Shown piece after piece: positions 1 through 11,469 of a stretch of DNA of 11,469 nt; position 1 is the stretch's first letter, and each line of letters opens with the position of its first letter. Position numbers and translations under genes: made by a program. The notes beneath the pieces are model-generated. The model had not been told where the DNA came from. It did no database searches and saw nothing but the letters and a program-made list of their open reading frames with translations. The stretch comes from Candidatus Neoflavobacterium equi (GTDB lineage Bacteria; Bacteroidota; Bacteroidia; Flavobacteriales; Flavobacteriaceae). The DNA lies in the NCBI GenBank assembly GCA_018065745.1, contig JAGHSS010000112.1, forward strand, positions 1 to 11,469, read 5' to 3'.

Positions 1-29
1 ATTTACACTAACTAATTAAACTGTAAGAA

Positions 30-470
30 ATGAAAAAATTATTAAGTCTTGTTGCGATTATAGCATTCAGCGCAACATCATTTGCACAAACAAAAGGTCC
101 AAAAATTGAATTTAAAGCAAAAGAAAACACCATTGATTATGGAACTGTTTCTAGAGATTCTGACTCAGGATTAAGAACTTTTGAATTTAAAAATACGGGT
201 GATGCACCTTTAATCGTTACGAATGTACAATCATCATGTGGATGTACAGTTCCATCAAAACCAACAGAACCAATCATGCCAGGTAAAGAAGGTAAAATTG
301 ATGTAAAATACAATATGTCTCCAGGGAAAATTGCTAAAACTATCACAGTTGAATCAAATGCAGTTAACGTTCCAGAAGGACGTGTTTCTTTGAGAATCAA
401 AGGAGAAGTTGTGGTTAAAGAAGCTAAAAGCGACTTGGAAAAACCAAAAGCAGTAATGCAAACTAAATAA
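30..470 (+). CDS. DUF1573 family secreted protein
   Basis: The 146-residue product starts with a clear Sec signal peptide: MKK, a hydrophobic core, and a likely cleavage after SFAQ near residue 20. The rest is one small beta-rich domain of the DUF1573 type. Its signatures are the opening 'IDYGTV', the phrase 'FEFKNTGDAPLIV' and the cysteine pair SSCGCTVP (about residues 69-72), followed by 'PGKEGKIDVKYN'. Such domains are Ig-like/ASH-like and common in Bacteroidetes periplasmic or surface proteins, but no biochemical function is established. The C-terminal tail is lysine-rich and probably disordered. The ATG is preceded by an A-rich stretch and no strong Shine-Dalgarno, as is usual in this phylum. 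Its promoter would lie left of the window. It converges on the cbb3 locus and shows no functional link to it. The family call is firm; the role is unknown. Confidence 0.9.
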   Translation: MKKLLSLVAIIAFSATSFAQTKGPKIEFKAKENTIDYGTVSRDSDSGLRTFEFKNTGDAPLIVTNVQSSCGCTVPSKPTEPIMPGKEGKIDVKYNMSPGKIAKTITVESNAVNVPEGRVSLRIKGEVVVKEAKSDLEKPKAVMQTK

Positions 471-483
471 TAAAACACCATAT

Positions 484-518
484 AAAAAGGGGCAATCTTT
501 ACAGATTGCCCCTTTTTT
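484..518. terminator. Bidirectional intrinsic terminator
   Basis: A 10-bp perfect stem, GGGGCAATCT (489-498) with AGATTGCCCC (503-512), has a 4-base loop. It is flanked by five A on the left and six T on the right, so it has a T-tract when read from either strand. It sits between the convergent DUF1573 gene and the TauE/SafE-like gene and should end transcription of both. Confidence 0.93.
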
Positions 519-531
519 ATTTGCCTAAATA

Positions 532-1233
532 TTAATGACATACACTGTGTGCTCCAATAATCAAATTTAATGTACTTGGCGAAAGGTAGGGAATGGAAAG
601 TCCCAAACCGCGAATCACAAAGAAAACACCAAGCAGACAGGTCAGTACTGGAATCCCTTTCTGTATGTAGCCGCGCACTTTTGGCGTCATTGCATCCAGC
701 AGCAACTTGATCAACAACATCAAAGGAACGGTGCCCAAACCATAACTAAACATAAATTTGGCGGCCTCGCTGTAATCCTGTGTGCCCAAAGCGCCAAACA
801 AAGCGACATAAACCAAGCCGCAGGGCAAGAATCCATTTAAAACTCCTACCACAAAAAAACTAAATGCCTTTTTGGATTTGATTTGCTGCCCCAACTGTTT
901 TTTAATCAAACTTATGCCACGGCCCAATTTGCCGTTGAACTGTTGCAATCCCAACATCTTTGAAGAAAAGAGGGAAAAAACAATCATCGCGATTCCCAAA
1001 ACAATGGACAGCTGTTGCTGTATTCCCGCAAGGAAAAATCCCCTTCCCAAGGTGCCAAAAAACAACCCCATCAGGGTGTAGGTCAAAAGTCTCCCCAAGT
1101 GATAACTCAGTAATTGCGCCTGCTTTTTAAAGGTTGAAGTGCGAGAAACAGGCAGCATTAACGCAATGGGACCACACATCCCAACACAGTGCAGACTGCT
1201 AAACAATCCCAGGATAAAAGCGCCCCAAATCAT
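532..1233 (-). CDS. DsbD-like/TauE-SafE family membrane protein of the cbb3 locus
   Basis: This is a polytopic inner-membrane protein of 233 residues with about six hydrophobic segments. The N-terminus carries the motif HCVGMCGP (residues 15-22) inside the first helix, and GFLPCGLVY (about 134-142) begins the second half. This paired Cys arrangement is typical of the COG2836/DsbD_2 group, which databases often label 'sulfite exporter TauE/SafE'. Members sit beside cco genes in many bacteria, so a role in moving copper or reducing equivalents for cbb3 assembly is more plausible than sulfite export. That is inference from context. The protein ends in SVCH, which could add a metal ligand. Its ATG follows the fixH stop after one base (TGA-G-ATG on the minus strand), so translation is probably coupled. 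It is the last gene of the operon and is followed by a terminator. Confidence 0.85.
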   Translation of the reverse strand: MIWGAFILGLFSSLHCVGMCGPIALMLPVSRTSTFKKQAQLLSYHLGRLLTYTLMGLFFGTLGRGFFLAGIQQQLSIVLGIAMIVFSLFSSKMLGLQQFNGKLGRGISLIKKQLGQQIKSKKAFSFFVVGVLNGFLPCGLVYVALFGALGTQDYSEAAKFMFSYGLGTVPLMLLIKLLLDAMTPKVRGYIQKGIPVLTCLLGVFFVIRGLGLSIPYLSPSTLNLIIGAHSVCH

Positions 1234-1234
1234 C

Positions 1235-1684
1235 TCAGTCTATTTTTACTGTTTCAGTAACCATATATGGAATGCCGTTGTGCTTCCAATCTACAACCAC
1301 TTCCCAAACACCTGAAGCCAGGTTGGTATTGGGAACAACAAAGTTTAAATGTTCCAATTTCAGTTTGAAATTTTGATCCAACTTTTCATCAGACGCTCTG
1401 TACAAACTCACGCTTCCCACAATTTTAGTGTAGTCAAAATGTTCTGGAAAGTGAATGATCATCCCTTTTGAAATTGGAATTATTTGCACGGGGCTGACCA
1501 ACACACGCGCATTGTTTTTTTTGAGGTATACAGAATCTACCTCTTTTTCTTTTTTGTAATATTCTTCTGTGACCATTTGATGGTCGTATGCTTTATTAGA
1601 TTGTACTTGCAAGACAAAATACAGGATAAAACTCATAAACAAAGCAAATGCTATCACGATACAGGTTCCCCAATTGAATTTCAT
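1235..1684 (-). CDS. ccoH: cbb3 oxidase assembly protein CcoH/FixH
   Basis: The product has 149 residues: a short N-terminal segment (MKFNWGT), one membrane helix (about residues 8-28), then a periplasmic domain. After the helix comes a charged stretch with EEYYKKEKEVDS (about 40-51), and later a beta-sandwich-like region ending in GVWEVVVDWKHNG (about 125-137). This matches the FixH/CcoH family, needed for assembly or stability of cbb3 oxidase although its exact action is unsettled. It lies between ccoG and the TauE/SafE-like gene, the usual order in Bacteroidetes. The upstream gap to ccoG is 98 bp and contains a G/C-rich hairpin but no -7 promoter element that I can see. It is therefore probably transcribed from upstream. 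Sequence conservation in this family is low, so the call rests partly on context. Confidence 0.88.
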   Translation of the reverse strand: MKFNWGTCIVIAFALFMSFILYFVLQVQSNKAYDHQMVTEEYYKKEKEVDSVYLKKNNARVLVSPVQIIPISKGMIIHFPEHFDYTKIVGSVSLYRASDEKLDQNFKLKLEHLNFVVPNTNLASGVWEVVVDWKHNGIPYMVTETVKID

Positions 1685-1748
1685 AATGGTAATTTTTAAG
1701 TGGTTTATATTTTGGTCTTTTTCTTTGGTTTGGTTTTGTTTTTTAAAA

Positions 1749-1768
1749 CCTCCCCGTTGCCAGGGAGG
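1749..1768. other. Intergenic hairpin between ccoG and fixH
   Basis: CCTCCC (1749-1754) pairs with GGGAGG (1763-1768) around an 8-base loop. Read on the minus strand the hairpin is followed by only four T and then A-rich sequence. It is therefore at best a weak terminator; it could also protect a 3' end or mark a processing site in the mRNA. It fills the 98-bp gap after the ccoG stop. Confidence 0.55.
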
Positions 1769-1782
1769 GTGATTTTTAAAAA

Positions 1783-3201
1783 CTAGTTGAAACTTCTTGG
1801 ACTCAAGAAATTTGTTTTGGTGGTTTCAATCAGCACCTGGCCGTTGTAAACTTCTATGATCAACTCTGTTTTATCGCGTTCCAATAAAACCTGAGGTATT
1901 TCAATAAACAGCGTTCCTTGGGACATCCCCTGGGACGGAATTTGCATTTTTTCTTTTCCAACAATTTGCACTGTCGCAGGAATATTTGCCACTTTAAAGG
2001 TCACTTCATTGTAGTCAACAACGGTTTTGTTGACCAATTTAAAAGTAAACACATTGCTGATGTTTGCGCCCTTGTGCTCAAAGAGTTGTCCAGGCAATCT
2101 CAATATATTGGCCTCAACATCGCTTCTCAAAAACAACAGTCCAACAAACAACAGAATCAAAGCGCCCAAAACTCCCAAATAGGCCTTCATGCGCAGGGTG
2201 AATTTAAAAGGTTCTTTTGCTTTTATCCCGCGTTCTGAAGCAAAGGTGATCAAGTTGGGTTGCATTTCCAGACTGTGCATCACGTGGTTACACTCATCAA
2301 TACAAGCCGTGCAGTTGATGCATTCCAACTGGGTTCCATTTCTGATGTCTATTCCAGTAGGACAGACGTGAACACAGCGTTTACAGTCAATACAGTCCCC
2401 TTTTCCCAAGGCTTTTCTGTCTTCTTTTTTAACCATTTTGGCCCTTCCGGAAGTACCTTCTCCCCTCACATAATCATAGGCAACAACCACAGATTTATCA
2501 TCCAAGAGTACCCCTTGTAGCCTTCCATAAGGACAGGCGATGATGCAAACCTGCTCTCTGAACCAAGCGTAGATAAAGTAAAAAACACCTGTAAAACACA
2601 GCAGTGCAATAAGCGTACTGCTGTTGTGGAAAGGTCCTTTTCTCACCATGTCCAAAACAACGTCACTCCCAATGATGTAAGCCAAGAAAATATTGGCAAT
2701 GGCAAAAGATATGAGGAAGTAAAGCAGGTATTTGAAACTGCGTTTTCTGATTTTCTCAGCGTCCCACGCCTGTTTGTCCAATTTGATCTGTGCAGTTCTG
2801 TCTCCCTCAATCCAGTAGTCTATGCGTCTGAAAACCATTTCCATGAAAATGGTCTGCGGACAAATCCAACCGCAAAACAACCTTCCAAAGGCTACTGTAA
2901 ACAAGGTTACTCCCACAATGCCGATGATCAAAATCAAAACCAACAAGTAAAAATCCTGTGGCCAAAACGGCGCTCCAAACAAACTGAACTTGCGGTCAAT
3001 GATGTTGAACAAAAACAGCTGATTGCCGTTGATGTGTATGAAAGGCGCAGAAAATAAAAACAGCAAAAGCAGATAGCTTACATATTTTCTTTGATTGTAT
3101 AAGCGTCCGTTAGGTTTTTTTGGATGTAGGAAAATGCGTTTTCCCTCTTTGTCAATCGTTCCAATATGATCTCTAAAGTCATCCTCAGTATGTTGAGACA
3201 T
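1783..3201 (-). CDS. ccoG: Cytochrome c oxidase accessory protein CcoG (polyferredoxin)
   Basis: This is a 472-residue membrane iron-sulfur protein of the FixG/RdxA/CcoG family, involved in cbb3 assembly; in other bacteria it has been linked to reduction of copper for the oxidase. Visible features are a first helix (about 41-54), helices around 83-106, 156-178 and 195-212, and CGWICPQ (Cys110, Cys114). CIIACPYGR follows (Cys219, Cys223). Next come two ferredoxin-type [4Fe-4S] motifs: Cys270/273/276/280 in CIDCKRCVHVCP and Cys294/297/300/304 in CINCTACIDEC. A fifth helix (about 340-358) leads to a C-terminal Ig-like domain (from about 375). Full length for the family. The start MSQHTEDDFRDHIGTIDKEGKR is typical of flavobacterial homologues. 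A terminator-like hairpin lies just upstream, between ccoP and this gene, with no room for a promoter after it, so expression probably depends on read-through. Confidence 0.95.
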   Translation of the reverse strand: MSQHTEDDFRDHIGTIDKEGKRIFLHPKKPNGRLYNQRKYVSYLLLLFLFSAPFIHINGNQLFLFNIIDRKFSLFGAPFWPQDFYLLVLILIIGIVGVTLFTVAFGRLFCGWICPQTIFMEMVFRRIDYWIEGDRTAQIKLDKQAWDAEKIRKRSFKYLLYFLISFAIANIFLAYIIGSDVVLDMVRKGPFHNSSTLIALLCFTGVFYFIYAWFREQVCIIACPYGRLQGVLLDDKSVVVAYDYVRGEGTSGRAKMVKKEDRKALGKGDCIDCKRCVHVCPTGIDIRNGTQLECINCTACIDECNHVMHSLEMQPNLITFASERGIKAKEPFKFTLRMKAYLGVLGALILLFVGLLFLRSDVEANILRLPGQLFEHKGANISNVFTFKLVNKTVVDYNEVTFKVANIPATVQIVGKEKMQIPSQGMSQGTLFIEIPQVLLERDKTELIIEVYNGQVLIETTKTNFLSPRSFN

Positions 3202-3214
3202 GTTTTTTGGATTT

Positions 3215-3251
3215 AAAAAAACGGTTCATGTCCATCACTGGAAATGAACCG
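3215..3251 (-). terminator. Internal intrinsic terminator between ccoP and ccoG
   Basis: On the minus strand an 8-bp stem, CGGTTCAT (3251-3244) with ATGAACCG (3229-3222), encloses a 14-base loop and is followed directly by seven T (complement of A 3215-3221). It lies 21 bases beyond the ccoP stop. Only 13 bases separate its T-tract from the ccoG ATG. The large loop suggests partial rather than complete termination. Confidence 0.75.
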
Positions 3252-3272
3252 CTAGAATTAATTATGGGACTA

Positions 3273-4157
3273 CTACTTTGCCGGTGTAGTTTTCAGTTCT
3301 CCTTCTGGAGCTTTTGGATCCACAGGATTACTCCCTTGAAGACTCAAAACATAACTGGCAATTTTTTCTATTTCAGAAGGTTTGATGATTTCTTTCCAAG
3401 CTACCATCCCCTTGCCTGAACGACCACCTTCCATAATGGTGTTAAATACTTCTTTGACATCTCCTCCAAGAATCCAGTATTCATCTGTCAGGTTGGGCCC
3501 AATTGCTCCTCCTGCATCTGGTCTGTGACACGCCACACAATTGGTTTCAAAAAGTGCTTTTCCCTTAGCCAAATCTGAAGGCTCAGTCAACAACACTACA
3601 TTTTCAACACTTTTGGTGTCTGGAGCAGTTAATTTATACAATTCAACAGCCTTGGTTGCCTCAGCCATTTCTTTTTGAAATTCTTGGTGCTGATTGTCAT
3701 AATCTAAAACGTGGTATTTGGTCAGGTAAATAATCGCAAATGCAATACAACCATAGAACAAATACACCCACCACGGTGGCAAATCATTATCTAATTCTTT
3801 GATGCCGTCATAATCGTGATCCATCGTGATGGAAGCTTCCTCCTCCATCTTTTTGGTGCGCGTCAATTTGTTGACAAAATTTTTAAACCCTGGAGTTTCA
3901 GTAAACCATTGGTCATCTTCAGCTTCATGAGCTTCCCACTGTTCTGGAGTCATCACAGAGCGCATCAAAGCGTTTAGTGCTGAAACAACCATTTCAATAG
4001 CGATGAGCAGCAGTAAGAAAAAGGCCAGAATCAACATCACAATTGGATATCTCACAAAAGCCGGTTGATCTCCAGAATCAATCGCCCACTCCATTCCAAT
4101 AAAAAACAGAAAGAATAAAAGTGGAACCCTTACATATACAGGAAAGAATTTTTTCAT
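3273..4157 (-). CDS. ccoP: cbb3 oxidase cytochrome c subunit CcoP, mono-heme form
   Basis: The 294-residue subunit accepts electrons and passes them toward CcoNO. Two N-terminal helices (about 10-22 and 37-58) precede the classic FixP/CcoP stretch 'DGIKELDNDLPPWWVYLFY' (117-135), which runs into a third helix (about 129-146). A coiled, charged linker (about 150-195) leads to a single cytochrome c domain with CVACH (Cys207, Cys210, His211) and a probable Met ligand at 251 in GKGMVAW. Proteobacterial CcoP normally has two CXXCH motifs; only one is present here. The tail (275-294) is rich in Pro and Lys. Its ATG overlaps the ccoQ stop as ATGA (4157-4154), which indicates coupled translation. A terminator hairpin follows. 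Confidence 0.95.
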   Translation of the reverse strand: MKKFFPVYVRVPLLFFLFFIGMEWAIDSGDQPAFVRYPIVMLILAFFLLLLIAIEMVVSALNALMRSVMTPEQWEAHEAEDDQWFTETPGFKNFVNKLTRTKKMEEEASITMDHDYDGIKELDNDLPPWWVYLFYGCIAFAIIYLTKYHVLDYDNQHQEFQKEMAEATKAVELYKLTAPDTKSVENVVLLTEPSDLAKGKALFETNCVACHRPDAGGAIGPNLTDEYWILGGDVKEVFNTIMEGGRSGKGMVAWKEIIKPSEIEKIASYVLSLQGSNPVDPKAPEGELKTTPAK

Positions 4158-4351
4158 AGTGTTTCTGTGTTAGATGTTACACAATGATCCTCTAAAGGCA
4201 ATTGACTCAATTCTTCAATTTTTTCTTTGCGGTAGGTAAACACCCACACATAAAGCATGATAAAGAAACTAAAGAAGATCAGTAGGGAGATAATTGGGTA
4301 TATCTCTATACCCAATATCGTATCTAAGTTGTGTTTTATAAATTTTAACAT
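4154..4351 (-). CDS. ccoQ: CcoQ/FixQ-like small cbb3 subunit
   Basis: This small protein of 65 residues has one membrane helix (about 17-39) followed by the basic turn TYRKEKIEELSQLPLED. That matches the shape of CcoQ/FixQ: a single helix and a short charged cytoplasmic tail. Its position between ccoNO (11-bp gap) and ccoP (4-base ATGA overlap) is the canonical ccoQ slot. CcoQ is thought to stabilise the interaction of CcoP with the core. Sequence similarity to proteobacterial CcoQ is weak, so the name depends on position and topology as well as sequence. Confidence 0.85.
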   Translation of the reverse strand: MLKFIKHNLDTILGIEIYPIISLLIFFSFFIMLYVWVFTYRKEKIEELSQLPLEDHCVTSNTETL

Positions 4352-4362
4352 CTGATGTGTTT

Positions 4363-6552
4363 TTAATCTTGTTTAGGCTGTTTAATCTTGATATCTGTTC
4401 CCAGACGTTGTAGGTAAGCAATCATAGAGATAATTTCACGATCTTTCATATCCACATATTGCTCTCCTTTAGCAGCCGCCTTTTCACGTCCTTGCGCATC
4501 ACTCTTAACAAAATCAGGGTCATTTCTCAAATTCTCTTCAATCTGTGCCGCCTGAGCTGCCATGTTTTTACGAGCGTTCAAAATGTCTGCTTCTGTATAT
4601 GGAACACCCAATTTAACCATCACCTCCATTTTCTTTTCAATGTCGCTATAATCTGCTGCTTTGTTGTCAAACAACCATTTGTAACGCGGCATGATTGAAC
4701 CTGCAGAGGTACTTTGTGGATCCCACATGTGGTTAAAGTGCCAGTTGTCATTGTACTTACCACCAATTCGCATCAAGTCAGGACCTGTTCTTTTAGAACC
4801 CCATAAGAATGGGTGATCATATACATATTCTCCAGATTTAGAGTACTCCCCATAACGGGCAACCTCAGATCTGAACGGACGAATCATTTGGGAGTGACAT
4901 CCCACACAACCTTCTCTGATGTATAAATCTCTACCTTCCAATTCCAATGGAGTGTAAGGTTTCACAGAACTGATGGTTGGTATATTTTCTTGAACCACCA
5001 ACGTTGGCACAATTTGAATAATCCCACCAATCAAAATAGCTACTGTAGCTAATACAGTCAATTGTATCGGTTTGCGTTCCAACCATCCGTGGAAGCGCTC
5101 TCCTTTTAGACGTTTTGGAGAAATGCGTTCCAAAGCGGGTGCTTCTGCCAATTCATCTGTGATTTTTTCACCCACTTGAACCGTTTTAATAATGTTGTAA
5201 ACCAATACAAACATTCCAATCAAATAAAGTGTTCCACCCACTGCACGCATGGCATACATCGGCATGATTTGCGTTACTGTTTCCAAGAAGTTTCCATAAA
5301 CCAAAGAACCGTCTGGATTAAATTGTTTCCACATCAAAGCTTGGTTGAAACCAGCTACATAAAGTGGTAGTGTATATAAAATGATCCCCAAGGTTCCAAT
5401 CCAGAAGTGAACGTTCGCCAATTTAGTAGACCACAATTGTGTTTTTGTCAATTTTGGGATCAACCAGTAGATCAATCCAAAAGTCATGAACCCGTTCCAA
5501 GCCAATGCGCCAACGTGAACGTGAGCTACAATCCAATCTGTAAAATGGGCAATTGCATTTACATTTTTCAAAGACAACATAGGTCCCTCAAACGTTGCCA
5601 TTCCATATCCTGTGATTCCCACAACAAAGAATTTCAACACCGGTTCCACACGTACCTTGTCCCAAACTCCTCTCAAGGTTAGCAACCCATTGATCATCCC
5701 TCCCCAAGATGGAGCAATCAACATAATGGAGAATACAACTCCTAAGTTTTGCGCCCATTCTGGCAAAGCTGAATACAATAAATGGTGAGGTCCAGCCCAG
5801 ATGTAAATAAAGATTAAAGACCAAAAGTGTATGATGGACAGACGGTAAGAATACACCGGTCTGTTGGCAGCCTTAGGTAAAAAGTAATACATCAACCCCA
5901 AGAAAGGCGTGGTTAAAAAGAAGGCAACTGCATTGTGACCATACCACCATTGTACCAAAGCATCTTGAACCCCTGCATATACAGAATAAGATTTTAAAGC
6001 ACTAACAGGCAAACTCAAAGAGTTGAAGATGTGCAAAACGGCAACGGTAATGAATGTAGCCAAGTAAAACCATATCGCAACATACAAATGGCGTTCTCTT
6101 CTTCTCAAAATAGTCATGATCATATTGACCCCAAATACCACCCAAATCACTGCAATGGCAATATCTATAGGCCATTCTAATTCAGCGTATTCTTTTGAAG
6201 ACGTGAACCCCAGTGGTAAGGTAATTGCGGCAGCAACTAAAATCAATTGCCAGCCCCAGAAGTTGATGTTGCTCAGTGCATCACTGAACATACGGGTTTT
6301 CAATAAACGTTGCAGTGAATAATACATTCCTGCAAAAATGGCGTTCCCCACAAAGGCAAAGATCACCACATTGGTGTGCAACGGACGTAGTCTACCGTAG
6401 CTCAACCAAGAAATTCCGTCTGTCATCCCTGGAAACAGGTACATCAATGCAACCACAAGGCCCACCAACATCCCCACAACTCCAAAGAAGATTGTAGCGT
6501 ATAGGAATTTCTTTACAATTTTGTTATCGTAATAAAATTGCTGTACTTCCAT
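4363..6552 (-). CDS. ccoNO: Fused cbb3 oxidase subunits I and II (CcoN-CcoO)
   Basis: This 729-residue protein joins the catalytic heme-copper subunit CcoN (about 1-460) to the membrane-anchored cytochrome c subunit CcoO (about 490-729). In the CcoN part, His59 in RPLHTN fits a low-spin heme b ligand. His206 in WYGHN, with His256/His257 in AGPHH, fits the CuB ligands. Tyr250 sits at the position of the cross-linked tyrosine. His344 and His346 in VAHVHVG fit the heme b3 and heme b ligands. The second part keeps its own anchor helix (about 497-520), then CVGCH (Cys549, Cys552, His553) with Met621 in SIMPRYKW as likely axial ligand. The joined reading frame is intact across the linker (460-495). 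This fusion is the usual arrangement in Bacteroidetes. The gene starts 13 bp after ccoS. All residues needed for oxygen reduction appear present. Confidence 0.97.
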   Translation of the reverse strand: MEVQQFYYDNKIVKKFLYATIFFGVVGMLVGLVVALMYLFPGMTDGISWLSYGRLRPLHTNVVIFAFVGNAIFAGMYYSLQRLLKTRMFSDALSNINFWGWQLILVAAAITLPLGFTSSKEYAELEWPIDIAIAVIWVVFGVNMIMTILRRRERHLYVAIWFYLATFITVAVLHIFNSLSLPVSALKSYSVYAGVQDALVQWWYGHNAVAFFLTTPFLGLMYYFLPKAANRPVYSYRLSIIHFWSLIFIYIWAGPHHLLYSALPEWAQNLGVVFSIMLIAPSWGGMINGLLTLRGVWDKVRVEPVLKFFVVGITGYGMATFEGPMLSLKNVNAIAHFTDWIVAHVHVGALAWNGFMTFGLIYWLIPKLTKTQLWSTKLANVHFWIGTLGIILYTLPLYVAGFNQALMWKQFNPDGSLVYGNFLETVTQIMPMYAMRAVGGTLYLIGMFVLVYNIIKTVQVGEKITDELAEAPALERISPKRLKGERFHGWLERKPIQLTVLATVAILIGGIIQIVPTLVVQENIPTISSVKPYTPLELEGRDLYIREGCVGCHSQMIRPFRSEVARYGEYSKSGEYVYDHPFLWGSKRTGPDLMRIGGKYNDNWHFNHMWDPQSTSAGSIMPRYKWLFDNKAADYSDIEKKMEVMVKLGVPYTEADILNARKNMAAQAAQIEENLRNDPDFVKSDAQGREKAAAKGEQYVDMKDREIISMIAYLQRLGTDIKIKQPKQD

Positions 6553-6565
6553 AATTAATTAGTTT

Positions 6566-6739
6566 CTATTTTTGTTTAGGTTTGTTTTTCGTCTTTACCA
6601 ATTCATCCTCAAATAACATCCGCACTGAGGGGGTGTAATCATCGTCAAATTGACCGCTTTTTACTGCTCTGATAAAAGCAATAAGGAAGCAAGCGGCAAC
6701 CACTATACTGATGCTTATCAAGATGTATATCACACTCAT
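6566..6739 (-). CDS. ccoS: cbb3 oxidase maturation protein CcoS
   Basis: CcoS is a small single-helix membrane protein needed for cofactor insertion into cbb3 oxidase. The 57-residue product begins MSVIYILISISIVVAACFLI, then has AFIRAVKSGQFDDDYTPSVRML. The 'SGQFDD' segment after the helix is the family hallmark. I chose the ATG at 6739 over an in-frame ATG at 6772 for two reasons: family members begin at MSVIY, and a -7 promoter element (6765-6758) predicts a transcript start near 6752, downstream of the longer start. The tail is Lys-rich. It is the first gene of the ccoS-NO-Q-P unit and follows ccoI by 96 bp that contain two Fnr-like boxes. Confidence 0.93.
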   Translation of the reverse strand: MSVIYILISISIVVAACFLIAFIRAVKSGQFDDDYTPSVRMLFEDELVKTKNKPKQK

Positions 6740-6757
6740 AGTTCTTGTTTTATAGGT

Positions 6758-6765
6758 CAAATGTA
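6758..6765 (-). promoter_or_regulatory. Promoter -7 element for ccoS-ccoNOQP
   Basis: The minus strand reads TACATTTG, a perfect match to the Bacteroidetes -7 consensus TAnnTTTG. It implies a start near 6752 and a leader of about 13 bases before ccoS. The nearer Fnr-like palindrome is centred 29.5 bp upstream of its first base, which puts the activator near -41.5. Confidence 0.7.
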
Positions 6766-6788
6766 CTCCCATTCATCGGGGGTAAATA

Positions 6789-6800
6789 TGACATTTGTCA
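6789..6800. promoter_or_regulatory. Fnr-like operator, proximal to ccoS
   Basis: TGAC-ATTT-GTCA is a perfect palindrome of two 4-base arms with a 4-base spacer, the half-site and spacer geometry of FNR/CRP-family sites. It is centred at 6794.5, about 42 bp upstream of the predicted ccoS transcript start. The neighbouring Fnr-like protein (9323-10006) is the obvious candidate to bind it. Confidence 0.7.
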
Positions 6801-6825
6801 GCAAGGGGAAAACCAGCGTCAAAAC

Positions 6826-6839
6826 ATGATATTTATCAT
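6826..6839. promoter_or_regulatory. Fnr-like operator, distal to ccoS
   Basis: ATGATATTTATCAT contains TGAT-ATTT-ATCA, the core of the canonical FNR site TTGAT-N4-ATCAA. It is centred 38 bp upstream of the proximal box and overlaps the ccoI stop codon; the TGA is part of one half-site. The spacer is the same as in the other two boxes. It could hold a second dimer upstream of the ccoS promoter. Confidence 0.6.
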
Positions 6840-9214
6840 ATTTTGGCCCTTTTTGCGCCAATGGCTGTTTGAAGGGAAACAAAGCTGACAATGGTAATGG
6901 TGCTCAACGGCATGATGATGGCTGCCACCAATGGAGAAAGCAAGCCGCAAACGGCAAAGGTCAATCCAACGGCATTGTAAAGCAGCGACAATCCAAAACT
7001 CCACTTGATGGTTTTGACCGCTTTTTTGGACAACTTTAAATAGGTATCCAACAGTTGGAATTGTTGGGCATCCAAAATTCCGTCACAGGCAGGGGAAAAA
7101 ACATTGACGTTTTCAGAAATGGAAATCCCCACGTTGCTTTGAGCCAAAGCCCCAGCATCATTAAGTCCATCCCCAACCATCATGACGTATTTGCCCTCCT
7201 GTTGTAAATTTTTGATATAGTTTAGTTTTTGATCGGGTTTTTGATTGAATACCAAGGTGGTACCCTCAGGCAAGATGCGCTTTAAGAACGCTTCCTCACC
7301 GGCATTGTCTCCAGACAAAACCACCAATTCACAGTGGCTGTGCAAACGGCTCAATAAGGTTTCCATCCCCGCTCTGTAGGGATTGTCAAAGACAAATTTG
7401 CCCTGATACACCCCATTGATTGCCAGGTGAACCACCGTCTCAGAAAGCATTTGATCTGTTTCCAACTGCAAGAAAGAAGCAGAACCCAACGCAATGTGCA
7501 AGCCGTTGACCTCCCCGCTGATTCCCTTCCCGGTTACCTCTTCAAAATGGGCAACAGCAGTGGTTTTTTCCTGCTCAAAAAAGCTGTATAACCTTCTGTT
7601 CAAGGGGTGGTTGGAATTGCGCACCACAGATTTTACAGCCTCCTTAAAAGCGACCTCCAATACAGCCCCTTCATAGTAAATTTCAGCTTTGGAATTGGTC
7701 GTTAACGTTCCCGTTTTATCAAAGACCACCGTGTCAATTTGAGCCATTTTCTCAATCACCTGCGCATCTTTCAGGTACAGTTTGCTACTTCCAAAATAGC
7801 GCAACACATTCCCCAAAGTAAATGGAGCCGTCAGCGCCAAAGCACAAGGACAGGCCACAATTAATATGGCGGTGAAGACATTAAAAGCCGTGGTAACATC
7901 CACAAAAAACCATCCGATAAAAGAGAGTACTGCCAAAGCCAGCAGCCCCGGAGTAAAGTAATGACTGATTTTGTCTGTCAGTGTTCTGTATGCCAAATCC
8001 TCCTCTTTTTGAAAAACCGCATGACTCCACAAAGACGTCAAATAAGATTGGGAAACCTCGTGCAGCACTTCCATTTCAACCCCGCTCCCCAACTGTTTTC
8101 CACCAGCAAAGATTTTGTCCCCACTCGTTTTGACAATCGGTTCTGCCTCCCCAGACACAAAAGCGTAGTCTATAGAAGCCTGCGGAGACATCAGAATCCC
8201 ATCCACCGGAATCAATTCCTGGTTTCTGATCAACAGACGATCTCCAATTTTGATGTCATAAATAGCCACAGCCTGCTCTGCCCCTTGCACCAGTTTAGTA
8301 ACTGCCATGGGGAAATAAGACTTATAATCACGTTCAAAAGAAAGGAAGTTGTATGTTTTTTGCTGGAACAGCTTGCCCAAAAGCATAAAGAAAATCAGGG
8401 AGCACATGCTGTCAAAGAACCCCTGACTGTGGTCAAAAATAATGTCATAACTAGACCTTAAAAACATCACGATGATTCCAAGAGCAATTGGAATTTCAAT
8501 GCTGAGAATCCCAGCCTTAATACTTTTCCAAGCCGCCTCATAATACCCCCATCCAGAATACAAAAATGCCGGTAGGGAAATCCCAAAAATCAACCACCTA
8601 AAGAAGCCTTTATACTGTTGAATCCAGAATTCATCCACCTCAAAATATTCCGGAAAAGACAACAACATCACATTCCCAAAACAAAAAAATGCCACCCCGA
8701 TTCGATAAATCAAACTGCGATCAATTTTCTGTTGTACTTGGTCATAATCCTCCAAACTGAGGTAAGGTTCATAGCCGATTTTTGCCAAAAGCAAGACAAT
8801 ATCTTTCAGACTTGAAGTTTCTGAAATAAATACAATACGCACCTTTTTTTCGTGAAAATTCACTTGGGAGCGCTGCACACCTGGCAGTAATTTATTTAAA
8901 TTTTCCAATATCCAGATGCAAGAACTGCAGTGGATATGTGGAATATAAAGATTTGTAATTTGCGTTCCACCCTCGTCAAAAGAAATCAATTTCTCCACCA
9001 AATGCGGTTGGTCCAAGAAATTGTAACGGTTGACATCTACAGACACACGCGCACCTGGCGCATCCCCCATTTCATAGTAGGACGTCAGGTCATTTGCAGA
9101 AAAAATTTCATATACCGTTTGACAACCTGTGCAACAAAACGACAGTTCGTCAAATACAATTTCCTCTTTTTTAACAATTGGTCCCCCACAATGGTAACAA
9201 TTTTGCACTTCCAT
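6836..9214 (-). CDS. ccoI: Copper-transporting P1B-type ATPase CcoI/FixI
   Basis: This 792-residue pump is of the CcoI/FixI type, which moves copper across the inner membrane for cbb3 oxidase assembly. The N-terminus has a metal-binding ribbon-like region with Cys6/Cys9 (CYHCG) and Cys27/Cys28/Cys31 (FCCTGC). A heavy-metal-associated domain with CSSC (Cys96, Cys99) follows. After several helices come the actuator loop SGEAEP (354-359), the membrane CPC motif (455-457), the phosphorylation motif DKTGT (499-503), the His-Pro pair of the nucleotide domain (536-537) and the hinge GDGLND (681-686). Two final helices (about 737-757 and 760-783) end the protein. All catalytic motifs are intact. The actuator loop has SGEAEP where many relatives have TGES or TGEP, which keeps the essential Gly-Glu. 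It is transcribed divergently from the fnr-like gene and has its own predicted promoter, separate from ccoS. Confidence 0.96.
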   Translation of the reverse strand: MEVQNCYHCGGPIVKKEEIVFDELSFCCTGCQTVYEIFSANDLTSYYEMGDAPGARVSVDVNRYNFLDQPHLVEKLISFDEGGTQITNLYIPHIHCSSCIWILENLNKLLPGVQRSQVNFHEKKVRIVFISETSSLKDIVLLLAKIGYEPYLSLEDYDQVQQKIDRSLIYRIGVAFFCFGNVMLLSFPEYFEVDEFWIQQYKGFFRWLIFGISLPAFLYSGWGYYEAAWKSIKAGILSIEIPIALGIIVMFLRSSYDIIFDHSQGFFDSMCSLIFFMLLGKLFQQKTYNFLSFERDYKSYFPMAVTKLVQGAEQAVAIYDIKIGDRLLIRNQELIPVDGILMSPQASIDYAFVSGEAEPIVKTSGDKIFAGGKQLGSGVEMEVLHEVSQSYLTSLWSHAVFQKEEDLAYRTLTDKISHYFTPGLLALAVLSFIGWFFVDVTTAFNVFTAILIVACPCALALTAPFTLGNVLRYFGSSKLYLKDAQVIEKMAQIDTVVFDKTGTLTTNSKAEIYYEGAVLEVAFKEAVKSVVRNSNHPLNRRLYSFFEQEKTTAVAHFEEVTGKGISGEVNGLHIALGSASFLQLETDQMLSETVVHLAINGVYQGKFVFDNPYRAGMETLLSRLHSHCELVVLSGDNAGEEAFLKRILPEGTTLVFNQKPDQKLNYIKNLQQEGKYVMMVGDGLNDAGALAQSNVGISISENVNVFSPACDGILDAQQFQLLDTYLKLSKKAVKTIKWSFGLSLLYNAVGLTFAVCGLLSPLVAAIIMPLSTITIVSFVSLQTAIGAKRAKI

Positions 9215-9236
9215 AAAACGACTGATTTTATATCTA

Positions 9237-9244
9237 CAAATTTC
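9237..9244 (-). promoter_or_regulatory. Candidate -7 element for ccoI
   Basis: The minus strand reads GAAATTTG, seven of eight positions of TAnnTTTG. It implies a start near 9231 and a leader of about 17 bases. The Fnr-like box at 9268-9279 is centred exactly 29.5 bp upstream, the same spacing as at ccoS. That identical spacing is the main reason for accepting an imperfect element. Confidence 0.5.
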
Positions 9245-9267
9245 CTGCTTTATCCCCCCTTAACCTA

Positions 9268-9279
9268 TGATAAATGTCA
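9268..9279. promoter_or_regulatory. Fnr-like operator in the ccoI/fnr divergent region
   Basis: TGAT-AAAT-GTCA is a near-palindrome of the same form as the two boxes before ccoS; on the minus strand it reads TGAC-ATTT-ATCA. It is well placed to activate ccoI, at about -42. For the divergent regulator gene it falls where the -33 element should be, which suggests autorepression. The flanks extend symmetry slightly (ATGAT...ATCAT). Confidence 0.65.
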
Positions 9280-9289
9280 TCATAATCCG

Positions 9290-9297
9290 TATATTTG
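9290..9297 (+). promoter_or_regulatory. Promoter -7 element for the fnr-like gene
   Basis: TATATTTG matches TAnnTTTG perfectly. It predicts a transcript start near 9303, about 20 bases before the ATG at 9323. No good TTG-type -33 element is visible; the position it would occupy is covered by the Fnr-like box. Confidence 0.65.
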
Positions 9298-9322
9298 CAC
9301 ATCTTTAAACTATACCAAAACT

Positions 9323-10006
9323 ATGAGCAAGTGCGAACAATGTATTGTGAGACAGTTCAGCTCCTTAAAAGCCCTGACTAAGGATGAATTAATACAGATG
9401 TCCAAATGCAAAACCTCTTACACCATCAAAAAGGGGGATTCGATATTTGAGGAAGGCGATGTCACAAACGGCATTTACTGCATCAAAGACGGCGTTTGTA
9501 AACTATCCAAATTGAGTCCAAACGGCAAGGATCAGATCATCAAATTTGTGCGTCCTGGAGAATTGTTGGGCCAGCGCTCCATGATCAGTGAGGAGCCAAC
9601 CAACCTGAGCGCCATAGCCTTGGAAGACATGGAAGTGTGTTTTGTTCCCAAGCAAGAAATTTTAAATTTCTTCACTCAGAACAACAAATTTTCTTTAAAT
9701 GTTATGAAAACTTTGTCCAACGACCTTAAAGAAGCAGACGATCTCACCGTTTCCATGGCCCAAAAAACGGTCAAAGAACGCCTCGCTGCAGCCTTGTTGT
9801 ACTTGGAAGAAATTTTTGACGTCAACATGGATGACACCCTGAAAGTGCAATTGTCAAGAGAAGAATTGGCAGGCATGATTGGCACCGCGACAGAAAGTTG
9901 CATCAGACTCCTTTCAGAATTCAACAAATTGGGACTGATCGAATTGATCGGAAAGAAAATTGCCTTGAAAGACAGAAAGGGACTGGAAAAATTAGCAAAT
10001 CAATAA
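9323..10006 (+). CDS. Crp/Fnr family transcriptional regulator
   Basis: This 227-residue regulator has a cyclic-nucleotide-binding-like sensor domain (about 15-125), a dimer helix (about 126-155) and a winged helix-turn-helix domain (about 150-225). Its recognition helix is TATESCIRLLSEF, with Glu191 and Arg195 at the positions of E. coli FNR Glu209 and Arg213. Against E. coli FNR from memory, the N-terminal stretch aligns without gaps at a constant offset of 16. Cys4, Cys7 and Cys106 match Cys20, Cys23 and Cys122, but Ser13 replaces Cys29. Cys29, Cys53 and Cys59 are extra. It is therefore a probable oxygen or redox sensor of FNR type, but the cluster ligand set is uncertain. The frame stays open upstream to 8930, but that would add 131 residues antisense to ccoI and lie before the promoter; MSKCEQC at 9323 is the family start. 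It most likely controls the adjacent cbb3 genes. Confidence 0.93.
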   Translation: MSKCEQCIVRQFSSLKALTKDELIQMSKCKTSYTIKKGDSIFEEGDVTNGIYCIKDGVCKLSKLSPNGKDQIIKFVRPGELLGQRSMISEEPTNLSAIALEDMEVCFVPKQEILNFFTQNNKFSLNVMKTLSNDLKEADDLTVSMAQKTVKERLAAALLYLEEIFDVNMDDTLKVQLSREELAGMIGTATESCIRLLSEFNKLGLIELIGKKIALKDRKGLEKLANQ

Positions 10007-10021
10007 ATATTGACATCATAT

Positions 10022-10125
10022 GGGCGTTGCGCCCCCGCCCAAGGCGGGTTGGGGGCGCCGGGTTTTCCGCTTTATCTTTTGGCTGGCAAAGCCAGTCAAA
10101 AGGATGCCGCTACAACCCCTAACGC
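10022..10125 (+). repeat. Structured intergenic element (flavobacterial multi-hairpin type)
   Basis: This is a compact folded module starting 16 bases after the regulator's stop. An outer helix GCGTT (10024-10028)/AACGC (10121-10125) encloses a GC-rich hairpin: GCGCC (10029-10033) with GGCGC (10054-10058), and inside it CCCGCC (10034-10039) with GGCGGG (10043-10048). Next comes a helix GGGTT (10060-10064)/AACCC (10114-10118). Within that is a long hairpin of about 13 bp (10075-10087 with 10091-10104, loop AAA). Matching TTCCGC (10065-10070) and TGCCGC (10105-10110) face each other as an internal loop. From memory, elements with the frame GGGCGTT...TTTCCGC...GCCGC...CCCTAACGC recur between genes in flavobacteria. 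It may be a mobile repeat or a structured RNA; I cannot tell which. Confidence 0.65.
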
Positions 10126-10169
10126 AAAAAAAAACGATCACACTGAAAAAGTGTGATCGTTTTTTTTTT
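10126..10169. terminator. Bidirectional intrinsic terminator
   Basis: A 10-bp perfect stem, ACGATCACAC (10134-10143) with GTGTGATCGT (10151-10160), has a 7-base loop. A run of A precedes it and nine T follow it. It separates the convergent fnr-like and CvfB-like genes and can serve both strands. Confidence 0.95.
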
Positions 10170-10186
10170 ATATCCTTGCAAAGCTC

Positions 10187-11014
10187 TTATACCAAGTAGA
10201 TACCGTCTTCCTCAATTCGAATCAATTTCTGTTTGTACAAACTACCGACAGCTTTTTTGAAAACTTTCTTACTCATTTTCAAAACCGTCTTGATTTCCTC
10301 CGGATGAGAAGCATCGTTTAATCCCAAAAATCCGTTGTTAGATTTAAGTTCCGCCATAATTTTCTCAGCACTCGGCTCAATTACTTCCACCCCAATTGGG
10401 TTTCTAGAAACGTCGATTTTACCGTCAGGTCTGATAAATTTGATGTAACCAATCACACGGTCTCCCGTTCTCAAATCTTCATATACCTCATTGGTGTACA
10501 ACAATCCTTTGTGTAGTTCATTGATGATCACATTAATCCCCACCTCTGTGATGTGAGAAACAATTAAATCTACTTCATCCCCTACTTGCACGGTAAGGTT
10601 GTCATTCTGTAAAAATTTATTTGTTCTACTTGAACCCACCAAACGGTTGGTCTTGTCATCCAAATGCATGAAAATCAAATAACGCTTTCCTGTTTCCATT
10701 GGACGCGCCTGCTCCTTGAAAGGAACAAATAAATCCTTTTCCAATCCCCAATCCATGAAGGCACCAAATGAGTTGGTGTAATTTACTTTCAACAAAGCAA
10801 ATTCATTCAAGTATATATAAGGATGTAAAGTGGTTGCCACCGGACGCTCTTCGTGATCTAAGTATACAAAAACTTCAATTTCTGCATCAATCTCAAAGTT
10901 TGTAGGTACATATTTTGTTGGAAGCAATACATCAGAAGTACCATCGGTTAAAAATAGACCAACGTTCGTTGATCGTGCAATGGTTAGTGTATTGTATTTT
11001 CCTATTTCTATCAT
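10187..11014 (-). CDS. CvfB-type S1-like RNA-binding protein
   Basis: The 275-residue cytoplasmic protein belongs to the CvfB/YitL family (COG2996). It has tandem S1-like OB folds and a C-terminal winged-helix domain. The N-terminal part (MIEIGKYNTLTIARSTNVGLFL...) holds the first OB fold. The segment 'LKVNYTNSFGAFMDWGLEKDLFVPFKEQ' (about 74-101) is a recognisable S1 motif, and GDRVIGYIKFIRPDGKIDVSRNP marks another near 183-206. The end (about 217-275, with KKVFKKAVGSLYKQKLI) fits the winged helix. CvfB influences virulence gene expression in Staphylococcus, probably through RNA binding, but its target here is unknown. It has a likely promoter of its own, and the upstream DUF2853 gene ends in a terminator, so it is probably a separate unit. 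No link to the cbb3 locus is visible. Confidence 0.92.
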   Translation of the reverse strand: MIEIGKYNTLTIARSTNVGLFLTDGTSDVLLPTKYVPTNFEIDAEIEVFVYLDHEERPVATTLHPYIYLNEFALLKVNYTNSFGAFMDWGLEKDLFVPFKEQARPMETGKRYLIFMHLDDKTNRLVGSSRTNKFLQNDNLTVQVGDEVDLIVSHITEVGINVIINELHKGLLYTNEVYEDLRTGDRVIGYIKFIRPDGKIDVSRNPIGVEVIEPSAEKIMAELKSNNGFLGLNDASHPEEIKTVLKMSKKVFKKAVGSLYKQKLIRIEEDGIYLV

Positions 11015-11034
11015 GGGTATTCTTATTTAAAGTG

Positions 11035-11042
11035 CAAAGGTA
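11035..11042 (-). promoter_or_regulatory. Promoter -7 element for the CvfB-like gene
   Basis: The minus strand reads TACCTTTG, a perfect match to TAnnTTTG, 20 bases before the ATG (its last base is 11035; the ATG begins at 11014). The -33 region falls inside the upstream terminator hairpin and has no clear TTG. Confidence 0.6.
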
Positions 11043-11044
11043 AC

Positions 11045-11073
11045 AAAAAAAGAGGTTGTTTCCAGCCTCTTTT
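11045..11073 (-). terminator. Intrinsic terminator after the DUF2853 gene
   Basis: Read on the minus strand, AAAAGAGGCTG (11073-11063) pairs with CAACCTCTTTT (11058-11048) across a GAAA loop. The pairing includes one G-T pair. A seven-T tract (complement of A 11045-11051) ends it. It begins 23 bases after the DUF2853 stop. Confidence 0.85.
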
Positions 11074-11096
11074 GATTTATGATATATAATGTATGC

Positions 11097-11441
11097 TTAT
11101 TTGTTGTAAACAGCTTCTTTTTTGAAGTGTTTAGCCAATAAATAATACACTACAGCACGGTATTTATTGCGGTTTGACTTTCCGTATTGTTCCATTACAG
11201 ACTCAATAGCAGCATCCAATTCTGGACCGTCTGTTAATCCTAATTTTTTGATTAAGAAATTGTTTTTAACCGTTTCTATCTCAGATTTCTGAGATGCTGA
11301 AACCGTAGATGAATCCGCGTTGTAAATTGCAGGACCACAACCAATAGTTACTTTGGTTAAGAAATCCATATCAGCTTCTACTCCGCATTTATCCTTTAAA
11401 TCTGATGCATATTTAGCAATCAATTCTTCTCTTTTACTCAT
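11097..11441 (-). CDS. DUF2853 family protein
   Basis: This 114-residue soluble protein has no signal peptide or membrane helix. It starts MSKREELIAKYASDLKDKCG and contains the recognisable stretch 'LTKVTIGCGPAIYNADSSTVS' (about 28-48). The segment NNFLIKKLGLTDG (60-72) follows. The end SNRNKYRAVVYYLLAKHF (about 89-106) is the strongest family signature. This is the DUF2853 family, a small helical protein widespread in Bacteroidetes and Proteobacteria with no assigned function. It is full length, and a terminator follows it directly. The start is preceded by AAAAC and no Shine-Dalgarno. Its promoter would lie at or beyond the right edge (11442-11469 holds no clear TAnnTTTG). Nothing here ties it functionally to its neighbours. 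Confidence 0.92.
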   Translation of the reverse strand: MSKREELIAKYASDLKDKCGVEADMDFLTKVTIGCGPAIYNADSSTVSASQKSEIETVKNNFLIKKLGLTDGPELDAAIESVMEQYGKSNRNKYRAVVYYLLAKHFKKEAVYNK

Positions 11442-11469
11442 GTTTTGGTTATGTTAATTAGTAATGATA

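Follow-up and report, generated by a model that had tools for sequence, protein, structure and literature searches.

Fixed-spacing, probable operator boxes beside the cbb3 oxidase genes of Candidatus Neoflavobacterium equi, with the adjacent Fnr-like protein as their likeliest reader

Background

A stretch of 11,469 nucleotides from the flavobacterium Candidatus Neoflavobacterium equi (GenBank assembly GCA_018065745.1, contig JAGHSS010000112.1, positions 1 to 11,469 of the forward strand; hereafter the window) carries a gene for a CRP/FNR-family regulator, fnr, that faces away from a cluster encoding a cbb3-type cytochrome oxidase. Palindromes of the form TGAY-N4-RTCA stand on either side of the copper pump gene ccoI, one in the gap shared with fnr and one in the gap before the next gene, ccoS. 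The question raised by this locus is whether these boxes are operators and, if so, which protein reads them and in answer to which signal. An original prediction, made from the letters of the window, had taken them for the operators of two class II promoters forming a local regulon of the neighbouring Fnr-like protein. Having compared the locus with related genomes, we consider it highly probable that the boxes serve as operators of that protein, which would activate ccoI and ccoS from the class II position at low oxygen, act at hemN, ompW and other genes, and limit its own synthesis; activation, oxygen as the signal and autorepression are parts of this reading that we infer. The original observation holds and was, if anything, understated, and its interpretation is supported in its core.

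Predicted operators and promoters in the window

The boxes and the promoter elements that accompany them are as follows.

6789..6800, minus strand: ccoS operator box TGACAAATGTCA (read in the ccoS direction), in the ccoI-ccoS gap; a perfect TGAY-N4-RTCA with its centre at the predicted -41.5
6758..6765, minus strand: -7 element TACATTTG of the ccoS promoter, predicted start near 6753
9268..9279, minus strand: ccoI operator box TGACATTTATCA (read in the ccoI direction), in the fnr-ccoI gap; a perfect palindrome common to the divergent promoters of ccoI (at -41.5) and fnr (at about -28.5)
9237..9244, minus strand: degenerate -7 element GAAATTTG of the ccoI promoter, predicted start near 9232
9290..9297, plus strand: -7 element TATATTTG of the fnr promoter, predicted start near 9302; the box at 9268-9279 overlies its -33 region
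6827..6838, minus strand: third perfect box TGATAAATATCA, centred near -79.5 relative to the predicted start of ccoS; on the ccoI strand its TGA doubles as the stop codon of ccoI

The two boxes and two -7 elements of ccoS and ccoI lie where the original prediction had placed them, and both boxes are perfect TGAY-N4-RTCA palindromes, each centred 29.5 base pairs (bp) upstream of the first base of its -7 element (centre 6794.5 to 6765 for ccoS, centre 9273.5 to 9244 for ccoI). We take -41.5 to be the class II position of CRP/FNR activators. Both box centres fall at -41.5 when TAnnTTTG is set at -12 to -5, as passages of the Flavobacterium psychrophilum start-site map have it (PMC9723704), which bears out the class II spacing originally claimed and places the predicted starts at 6753 and 9232, close to the proposed 6752 and 9231 and one base off each. 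The boxes had also been said to share their form down to an ATTT spacer; the TGAY and RTCA arms stand, and ATTT is common to the two only with one box read on the other strand. Similarly, the claim of separate, identically built promoters holds for box and spacing and fails at the -7 element, because the ccoI promoter, unlike that of ccoS, has no T at -12.

The third box (6827-6838, TGATATTTATCA), absent from the original prediction, lies 38 bp upstream of the ccoS box, and no -7 element stands at the 29.5-bp spacing from it.

The exact pattern TGAYATTTRTCA occurs three times in the window against 0.04 expected, a number reached in none of 200 shuffles, and the full module (box, 23 bp and KAnnTTTG) occurs twice against 0.00 expected. 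The exact motif has seven sites in the whole genome, four of them in modules (two in the window and one each on contigs C160 and C355) and three outside (6827 and contigs C150 and C372); with at most one mismatch there are 111 sites against 43 for the reversed pattern.

Conservation of the boxes

Among 100 relatives sampled from the genus, 91 encode an Fnr at least 54% identical to that of the window over nearly its full length, which together with the window makes 92 loci. ccoI is the divergent neighbour of fnr in 90 of the 92, window included; the other two, G085 with its ccoI 3.2 kb away and G066 with no ccoI, are omitted from the count of fnr-ccoI gaps. Every one of these 90 fnr-ccoI gaps, again with the window included, holds exactly one perfect TGAY-N4-RTCA. 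In 82 of the 90, xAnnTTTG follows in the ccoI direction 35 bases after the start of the box, at 29.5 bp from the box centre, and two others have TAnnTTTG one base nearer. The ccoI-ccoS gap was compared in 78 loci, 14 of the 92 lacking the ccoI end and ccoS together in the available stretch, and all 78 (window included) have the box with TAnnTTTG at exactly 29.5 bp despite gap lengths that range from 65 to 438 bp. This is the fixed-spacing site centred at -41.5 of a class II promoter, its positions being predicted from the published map.

The base at -12 is T in all 78 ccoS gaps; among the 82 ccoI gaps with the standard offset it is G in 54, A in 20, C in eight and T in none. The difference between TACATTTG at ccoS and GAAATTTG at ccoI is itself conserved, and for this reason we reject the description of the two promoters as identical. 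A weak -7 element at ccoI would raise the dependence of the copper pump on its activator and hold it below the oxidase. The N4 spacer differs between species and is equal in both gaps, in either orientation, in 41 of 78 genomes; its variation indicates a spacer that is AT-rich and not fixed, and led us to reject ATTT as a part of the code. Immediately outside the core, the outer operator base is A in 96% of fnr-ccoI sites and in 92% of those before ccoS, and the base on the far side is always T (100%).

Named records, the best 80 of 466 loci and a set that overlaps the genus sample, include F. columnare and F. aquatile. Two of the 80 have no ccoI and seven gave no ccoI-ccoS gap; the box is present in 78 of 78 fnr-ccoI gaps, with xAnnTTTG at the standard offset in 67 of them (T at -12 in two of the 67), and the ccoS module in 73 of 73 ccoI-ccoS gaps.

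Towards fnr the arrangement is looser: in 59 of the 90 gaps TAnnTTTG and the centre of the box are 14.5 to 17.5 bp apart, and the spacing varies, mostly from 14.5 to 20.5 bp. Judged from the letters of these gaps, autorepression of fnr is likely in the 59 where the box covers the -33 region, a reading that does not extend to a group of gaps near 200 bp. As for the third box, a perfect box at its distance from ccoS is found in none of 77 relatives, hence in one of 78 genomes with our own counted, and it was rejected as a conserved tandem site on that count; in G044 and G045 the ccoS gap contains another perfect box, 109 and 113 bp upstream.

Outside the genus, the ccoS gap was compared in 29 other genera of the family, the best-scoring 29 of 61 genomes that have ccoS besides our own. 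A box lies within 300 bp in 28 of the 29, with TAnnTTTG at 29.5 bp in 23 and TAnnTTTA there in four more; one genome has no box and one has a box without a -7 element. Nine family members of other genera were present in the phylum sample, and in the six whose Fnr reaches an E-value of 1e-40 or lower the gene order is always kept and a box always lies within 400 bp; four of these six have xAnnTTTG at the standard offset, and a fifth has it one base nearer. Conservation in orthologous gaps, which the original prediction had set as a check, is therefore seen in the fnr-ccoI and ccoI-ccoS gaps of the genus and in the ccoS gaps of other genera. In all, 20 of 21 Fnr matches outside the genus were covered (the remaining one, G193, 36% identical and matched from residue 20, came without a locus), 14 of them from outside the family. 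A ccoI-like gene is in reach in three of these 14 and divergent in one, G290, a member of another class whose Fnr is about 41% identical, and there, read towards ccoI, TAnnTTTG stands at the standard offset.

Modules across genomes

Across 101 genomes the module occurs 629 times and the reversed pattern 16 times. When the spacing was left free between 14.5 and 44.5 bp, the first 150 matches listed, from 25 genomes, had a spacing of 29.5 bp in 79 cases and 30.5 bp in 24, the next commonest being 28.5 bp in eight. Six modules with K at -12 are present in our own genome: the two of the window, one before hemN (TIGR00538), one before ompW (PF03922) and two with no clear gene behind them. The last two, on contigs C211 and C355, are both perfect, and one of them points off the end of its contig.

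What lies behind such modules was followed in 60 drawn from a listing of those not at ccoS, comprising all of seven genomes and three of the five of an eighth, G020. A downstream open reading frame (ORF) is present behind 59 of the 60; 20 of the downstream proteins were scanned against family models, and the others were named by clustering or by eye. All seven relatives whose modules were sampled in full have hemN behind one of them, clustering with the copy of our own genome, and hemN is not among the three sampled from G020. Four genomes have nirK behind a module (two confirmed by TIGR02376), two have the iron-sulfur repair protein RIC (one confirmed by TIGR03652), and several have outer-membrane barrels. 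Single cases include fumarase, phosphotransacetylase, phosphoenolpyruvate carboxykinase and a universal stress protein, and many further modules precede genes with no obvious respiratory link. Heme synthesis, cbb3 oxidase, OmpW and nitrite reduction make up a typical FNR-type regulon, in which cbb3, hemN and ompW are classical low-oxygen targets. The modules found genome-wide before hemN, ompW, nirK and others lead us to reject a regulon that is local only, as had been claimed from the window; the original prediction would also have failed had the motif been no more frequent before respiratory genes than by chance, and the motif with the correct spacing is enriched and does precede hemN and nirK.

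The matches at 30.5 bp form a second module class, with the box at that distance from TAnnTTTG; nine of the 24 listed were followed. Of these nine, four precede a small membrane protein with a globin-like ORF after it, and one precedes a flavohaemoglobin-like protein (by eye). The class is likely to be a sister regulon for nitric oxide detoxification under another CRP/FNR paralog.

The regulator and its candidate role as reader

9323..10006, plus strand: fnr, CRP/FNR-family regulator of 227 amino acids, with cysteines C4, C7, C53 and C106 and the recognition helix E191-S-C-I-R195

The protein has the CRP/FNR architecture, cNMP_binding (PF00027, 78.8 bits) and HTH_Crp_2 (PF13545, 61.2 bits), both over cut-off, and its best sequence match in the PDB is the Porphyromonas gingivalis Crp structure 2GAU. 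The cluster cysteines of Escherichia coli FNR we take to be C20, C23, C29 and C122. In alignment to the FNR of Aliivibrio fischeri, C4, C7 and C106 fall at the equivalents of C20, C23 and C122, while Ser13 occupies that of C29, leaving the E. coli set of four incomplete, and C53 aligns to a residue that is not cysteine. C4, C7, C53 and C106 are each invariant throughout the genus (92 of 92 proteins, that of the window among them), and all 20 homologues compared from other genera have them too. The window protein's own C29 is cysteine in only 65 of the 92, and C193, within the recognition helix, is invariant in the genus and not outside it. E191 and R195 of that helix are invariant, and so is I194, both within the genus (92 of 92) and outside it (20 of 20), so that the helix departs from the E-x-x-S-R of E. 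coli FNR by Ile for Ser. This change and the outer A of the operator may go together.

Eleven CRP/FNR paralogs of the same genus were sampled from a longer listing. Six have an N-terminal CX2CX4C, C106 and Phe at position 53; in the other five, N-terminal cysteines of this kind and a cysteine at 53 are both absent, with C106 retained in one. C53 is thus present where the third N-terminal cysteine is missing, as a swap of ligands predicts, and C4, C7, C53 and C106 may together hold an iron-sulfur cluster. The strands with C53 and C106 are, we presume, neighbours in the CRP jelly roll. One paralog of about 232 amino acids has, with its N-terminal CX2CX4C and a C106 equivalent, a canonical-looking set of FNR cysteines. 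Foldseek matches listed for an AlphaFold2 (AF2) model of the window protein, a poor query, have folds of the CRP/FNR type, their TM-scores not exceeding 0.57 and their root-mean-square deviations lying near 15.

Because the window Fnr is the only HTH_Crp_2 protein over cut-off in its own, incomplete genome (a second match falls below), it is the likeliest reader of the boxes as judged from sequence. Genomes with an ortholog (n=92) have on average 6.6 modules, against zero to six in those without (n=9; one-sided Mann-Whitney 9e-5, with relatedness uncorrected). The nine have none (G001), five (G019), three (G021), one (G026), two (G037), one (G039), six (G069), three (G073) and none (G086). Five of them are at most 90% complete (G069 76%, G086 85%, G021 86%, G037 89% and G026 90%), and G021 retains a fragment of the ortholog. 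G066 has Fnr, no full-length cbb3 match, no box before fnr and no module. In G073 a universal-stress-like gene stands where fnr would be, and the closest CRP/FNR gene, by eye, is a fusion to a receiver (response-regulator) domain beside a histidine kinase. The comparison accordingly favours the adjacent protein as reader, as originally predicted, with G073, which keeps its boxes without this Fnr, speaking against it.

Genes of the window

The source genome comprises 2.17 Mb in 402 contigs, of which the window is contig C18, at a completeness of 83.6%. With fnr on the plus strand and the cco cluster (ccoI, ccoS, fused ccoNO, Q, P, G, H and a DsbD_2-family gene) on the minus strand, the two form a divergent pair.

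6836..9214, minus strand: ccoI, copper-type P-type ATPase of the cbb3 assembly set (PF12156, PF00122)
6566..6739, minus strand: ccoS, cbb3 oxidase assembly protein (TIGR00847, 43.1 bits over a cut-off of 28.35)
4363..6552, minus strand: ccoNO, fused cbb3 subunits I and II (NF011053, 1332 bits over a cut-off of 1080)
4154..4351, minus strand: ccoQ-like small subunit (PF05545, below cut-off)
3273..4157, minus strand: ccoP, cytochrome c subunit with FixP_N and cytochrome c domains
1783..3201, minus strand: ccoG, cbb3 accessory iron-sulfur protein (TIGR02745, 390 bits over a cut-off of 317)
1235..1684, minus strand: ccoH/FixH (PF05751)
532..1233, minus strand: DsbD_2-family membrane protein (domain match), last gene of the cco cluster

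The cluster is identified as that of a cbb3 cytochrome oxidase by ccoNO, ccoS and ccoG, all of which exceed curated cut-offs. ccoI scores below the cut-off of the copper-translocating P-type ATPase model TIGR01511 (300 against 397 bits), and its identity rests on PF12156, PF00122 and synteny. No terminator was found by a simple scan of the ccoI-ccoS gap, and ccoI transcripts may thus continue into ccoS. ccoN and ccoO form a single fused reading frame of 729 amino acids (4363-6552). Directly downstream of fnr lies a Flavo-1 element (Rfam RF01705, 46.8 bits, cut-off 42) at 10052-10130 on the minus strand.

Discussion

Several observations, here and among the alternatives below, weigh against our reading of the boxes as low-oxygen operators of the adjacent Fnr. 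Two of the six modules of its own genome (C211 and C355) have no clear gene behind them, and the geometry of autorepression is present in only 59 of 90 gaps. Outside the family the link fades, with a box within 400 bp in six of 14 homologues, and in G085, where fnr no longer adjoins ccoI, there is no box before fnr, which indicates that the box tracks ccoI more than fnr. The protein scores below the cut-off of the NCBIfam Fnr subfamily (NF008365, 93.1 against 228 bits). Its AF2 model, built with 30 close homologues, is poor (predicted local distance difference test 70.6, predicted template-modelling score 0.43) and, although it sets C53 in strand 50-56 and C106 in strand 103-109, gives no cysteine geometry. 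Moreover, in passages of the F. psychrophilum study the hypoxia-induced genes also rise under iron scarcity, which is awkward for an activator with an iron-sulfur cluster (PMC9723704).

That the boxes are chance palindromes of AT-rich gaps is a negligible prospect. Such gaps do yield many imperfect matches, and with up to two mismatches the pattern is unremarkable in the window (11 matches where 6.8 are expected, a number attained by 22 of 200 shuffles); the counts of exact sites and modules, together with their conservation in genus and family, lead us to reject this origin. If the boxes are sites, they might instead repress ccoI and ccoS by blocking polymerase when oxygen is present, since each lies just upstream of the -33 region and position alone does not prove activation. 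We regard this as very improbable: a centre at exactly -41.5 with fixed spacing is what we take for the position of a class II activator, the spacing varies in the fnr direction, where repression is suggested, and the degenerate -7 element of ccoI suits a promoter that depends on an activator.

The boxes might also be true -41.5 operators read mainly by another CRP/FNR paralog, such as the response-regulator fusion or the CX2CX4C paralog, with the adjacent Fnr secondary or a bystander. G073, a complete genome without the ortholog, retains boxes with another N4 at its cco genes and has the receiver-domain fusion, and G019, with neither ortholog nor cbb3, has five modules; such boxes can evidently have another reader. 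CRP/FNR paralogs occur in many relatives, globin-like genes stand behind modules of the second, 30.5-bp class, and at 83.6% completeness our own assembly may be missing another reader. Nevertheless, the sole HTH_Crp_2 protein over cut-off in that genome is the window Fnr, modules are fewer where the ortholog is absent, and Fnr, ccoI and box occur together in 90 of the 92 loci examined, so that we hold this alternative to be rather improbable. It is unlikely, to a lesser degree, that the adjacent protein reads the boxes in answer to nitric oxide, another redox cue or carbon supply, and not to oxygen. The targets include nirK and the iron-sulfur repair protein, and FNR-type clusters also react with nitric oxide; against this, cbb3, hemN and ompW are the low-oxygen targets named above, and the four invariant cysteines suggest a cluster and not a sugar ligand. 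Carbon sensing has been predicted, in passages of one study, for a CRP/FNR homologue of Flavobacteriales that may not be the ortholog of the window protein (PMC8510549), whereas cbb3 and heme synthesis are induced under oxygen limitation in F. psychrophilum, according to parts of the transcriptome study (PMC9723704).

Under the preferred reading, with the adjacent Fnr as a low-oxygen activator, a drop in oxygen would lead the Fnr dimer to bind ATGAY-N4-RTCAT centred at -41.5 and to recruit RNA polymerase at two promoters, those of ccoI (the copper pump) and ccoS, transcription from the latter probably continuing through NOQPGH. Further targets of Fnr would be hemN and ompW and, among relatives, nirK and other genes. 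Since the box expected to activate ccoI is centred at about -28.5 of the divergent fnr promoter, over its -33 region, bound Fnr should also limit its own synthesis.

The system resembles FNR-driven class II activation of cbb3 genes, and E. coli FNR is among its closest known counterparts. With it the window protein shares the CRP/FNR fold, CX2C with a later cysteine, an operator at -41.5 and target types such as heme synthesis and ompW. Unlike E. coli FNR it has no C29 equivalent and has the invariant C53, its helix reads E-x-x-I-R in place of E-x-x-S-R, its operator is ATGAY-N4-RTCAT in place of TTGAT-N4-ATCAA (the core TGAY-N4-RTCA being kept), and its system uses the Bacteroidota -7 element TAnnTTTG. 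Given the subfamily score, cysteine set, helix and operator, all unlike those of E. coli-type FNR, we class the protein as an FNR variant. The proteobacterial FixK, FnrL and Anr control ccoNOQP and ccoGHIS, often with hemN, and there too a CRP/FNR regulator drives the cbb3 oxidase and its assembly genes. The flavobacterial locus differs in that the regulator adjoins its targets and shares a divergent operator with them, in its promoter type, and in having ccoI with ccoS and no GHIS operon.

Within the genus, the F. psychrophilum transcriptome map agrees, in the parts drawn on here, in TAnnTTTG at -12 to -5 and in the rise of cbb3 and heme genes under oxygen limitation; the terms Crp, palindrom and fnr are absent from its main text, and the parts drawn on here give no regulator or operator for the low-oxygen response (PMC9723704). 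P. gingivalis HcpR, PgRsp and Crp belong to the same phylum and superfamily, HcpR and PgRsp differing in that they are reported to bind heme and in that the relevant passages describe no link to cbb3 (PMC6955866, PMC12040651).

Conclusions

Induction of cbb3 and heme genes had been measured earlier. Among the open-access titles listed there is no report of a flavobacterial Fnr operator or of an operator or regulator for the low-oxygen response. A broader proposal, which we put forward tentatively and at somewhat less than even chances, is that Bacteroidota have an FNR lineage of their own, in which the fourth ligand has moved from the N-terminal loop (C29) to C53 of the beta-roll, the helix has changed from Ser to Ile and the operator reads ATGAY for TTGAT. 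In Flavobacteriaceae this protein would control a low-oxygen regulon through class II sites at a constant 29.5 bp from TAnnTTTG. A single operator between the divergent genes would both activate the copper pump and repress the sensor, and avoidance of T at -12 would keep the -7 element of the pump weak. The cysteine pattern makes this a testable claim, that of an iron-sulfur switch rebuilt around a different ligand. The strict spacing rule would make the regulon readable from sequence in Flavobacteriaceae genomes, including the denitrification gene nirK, which is relevant to nitrous oxide.

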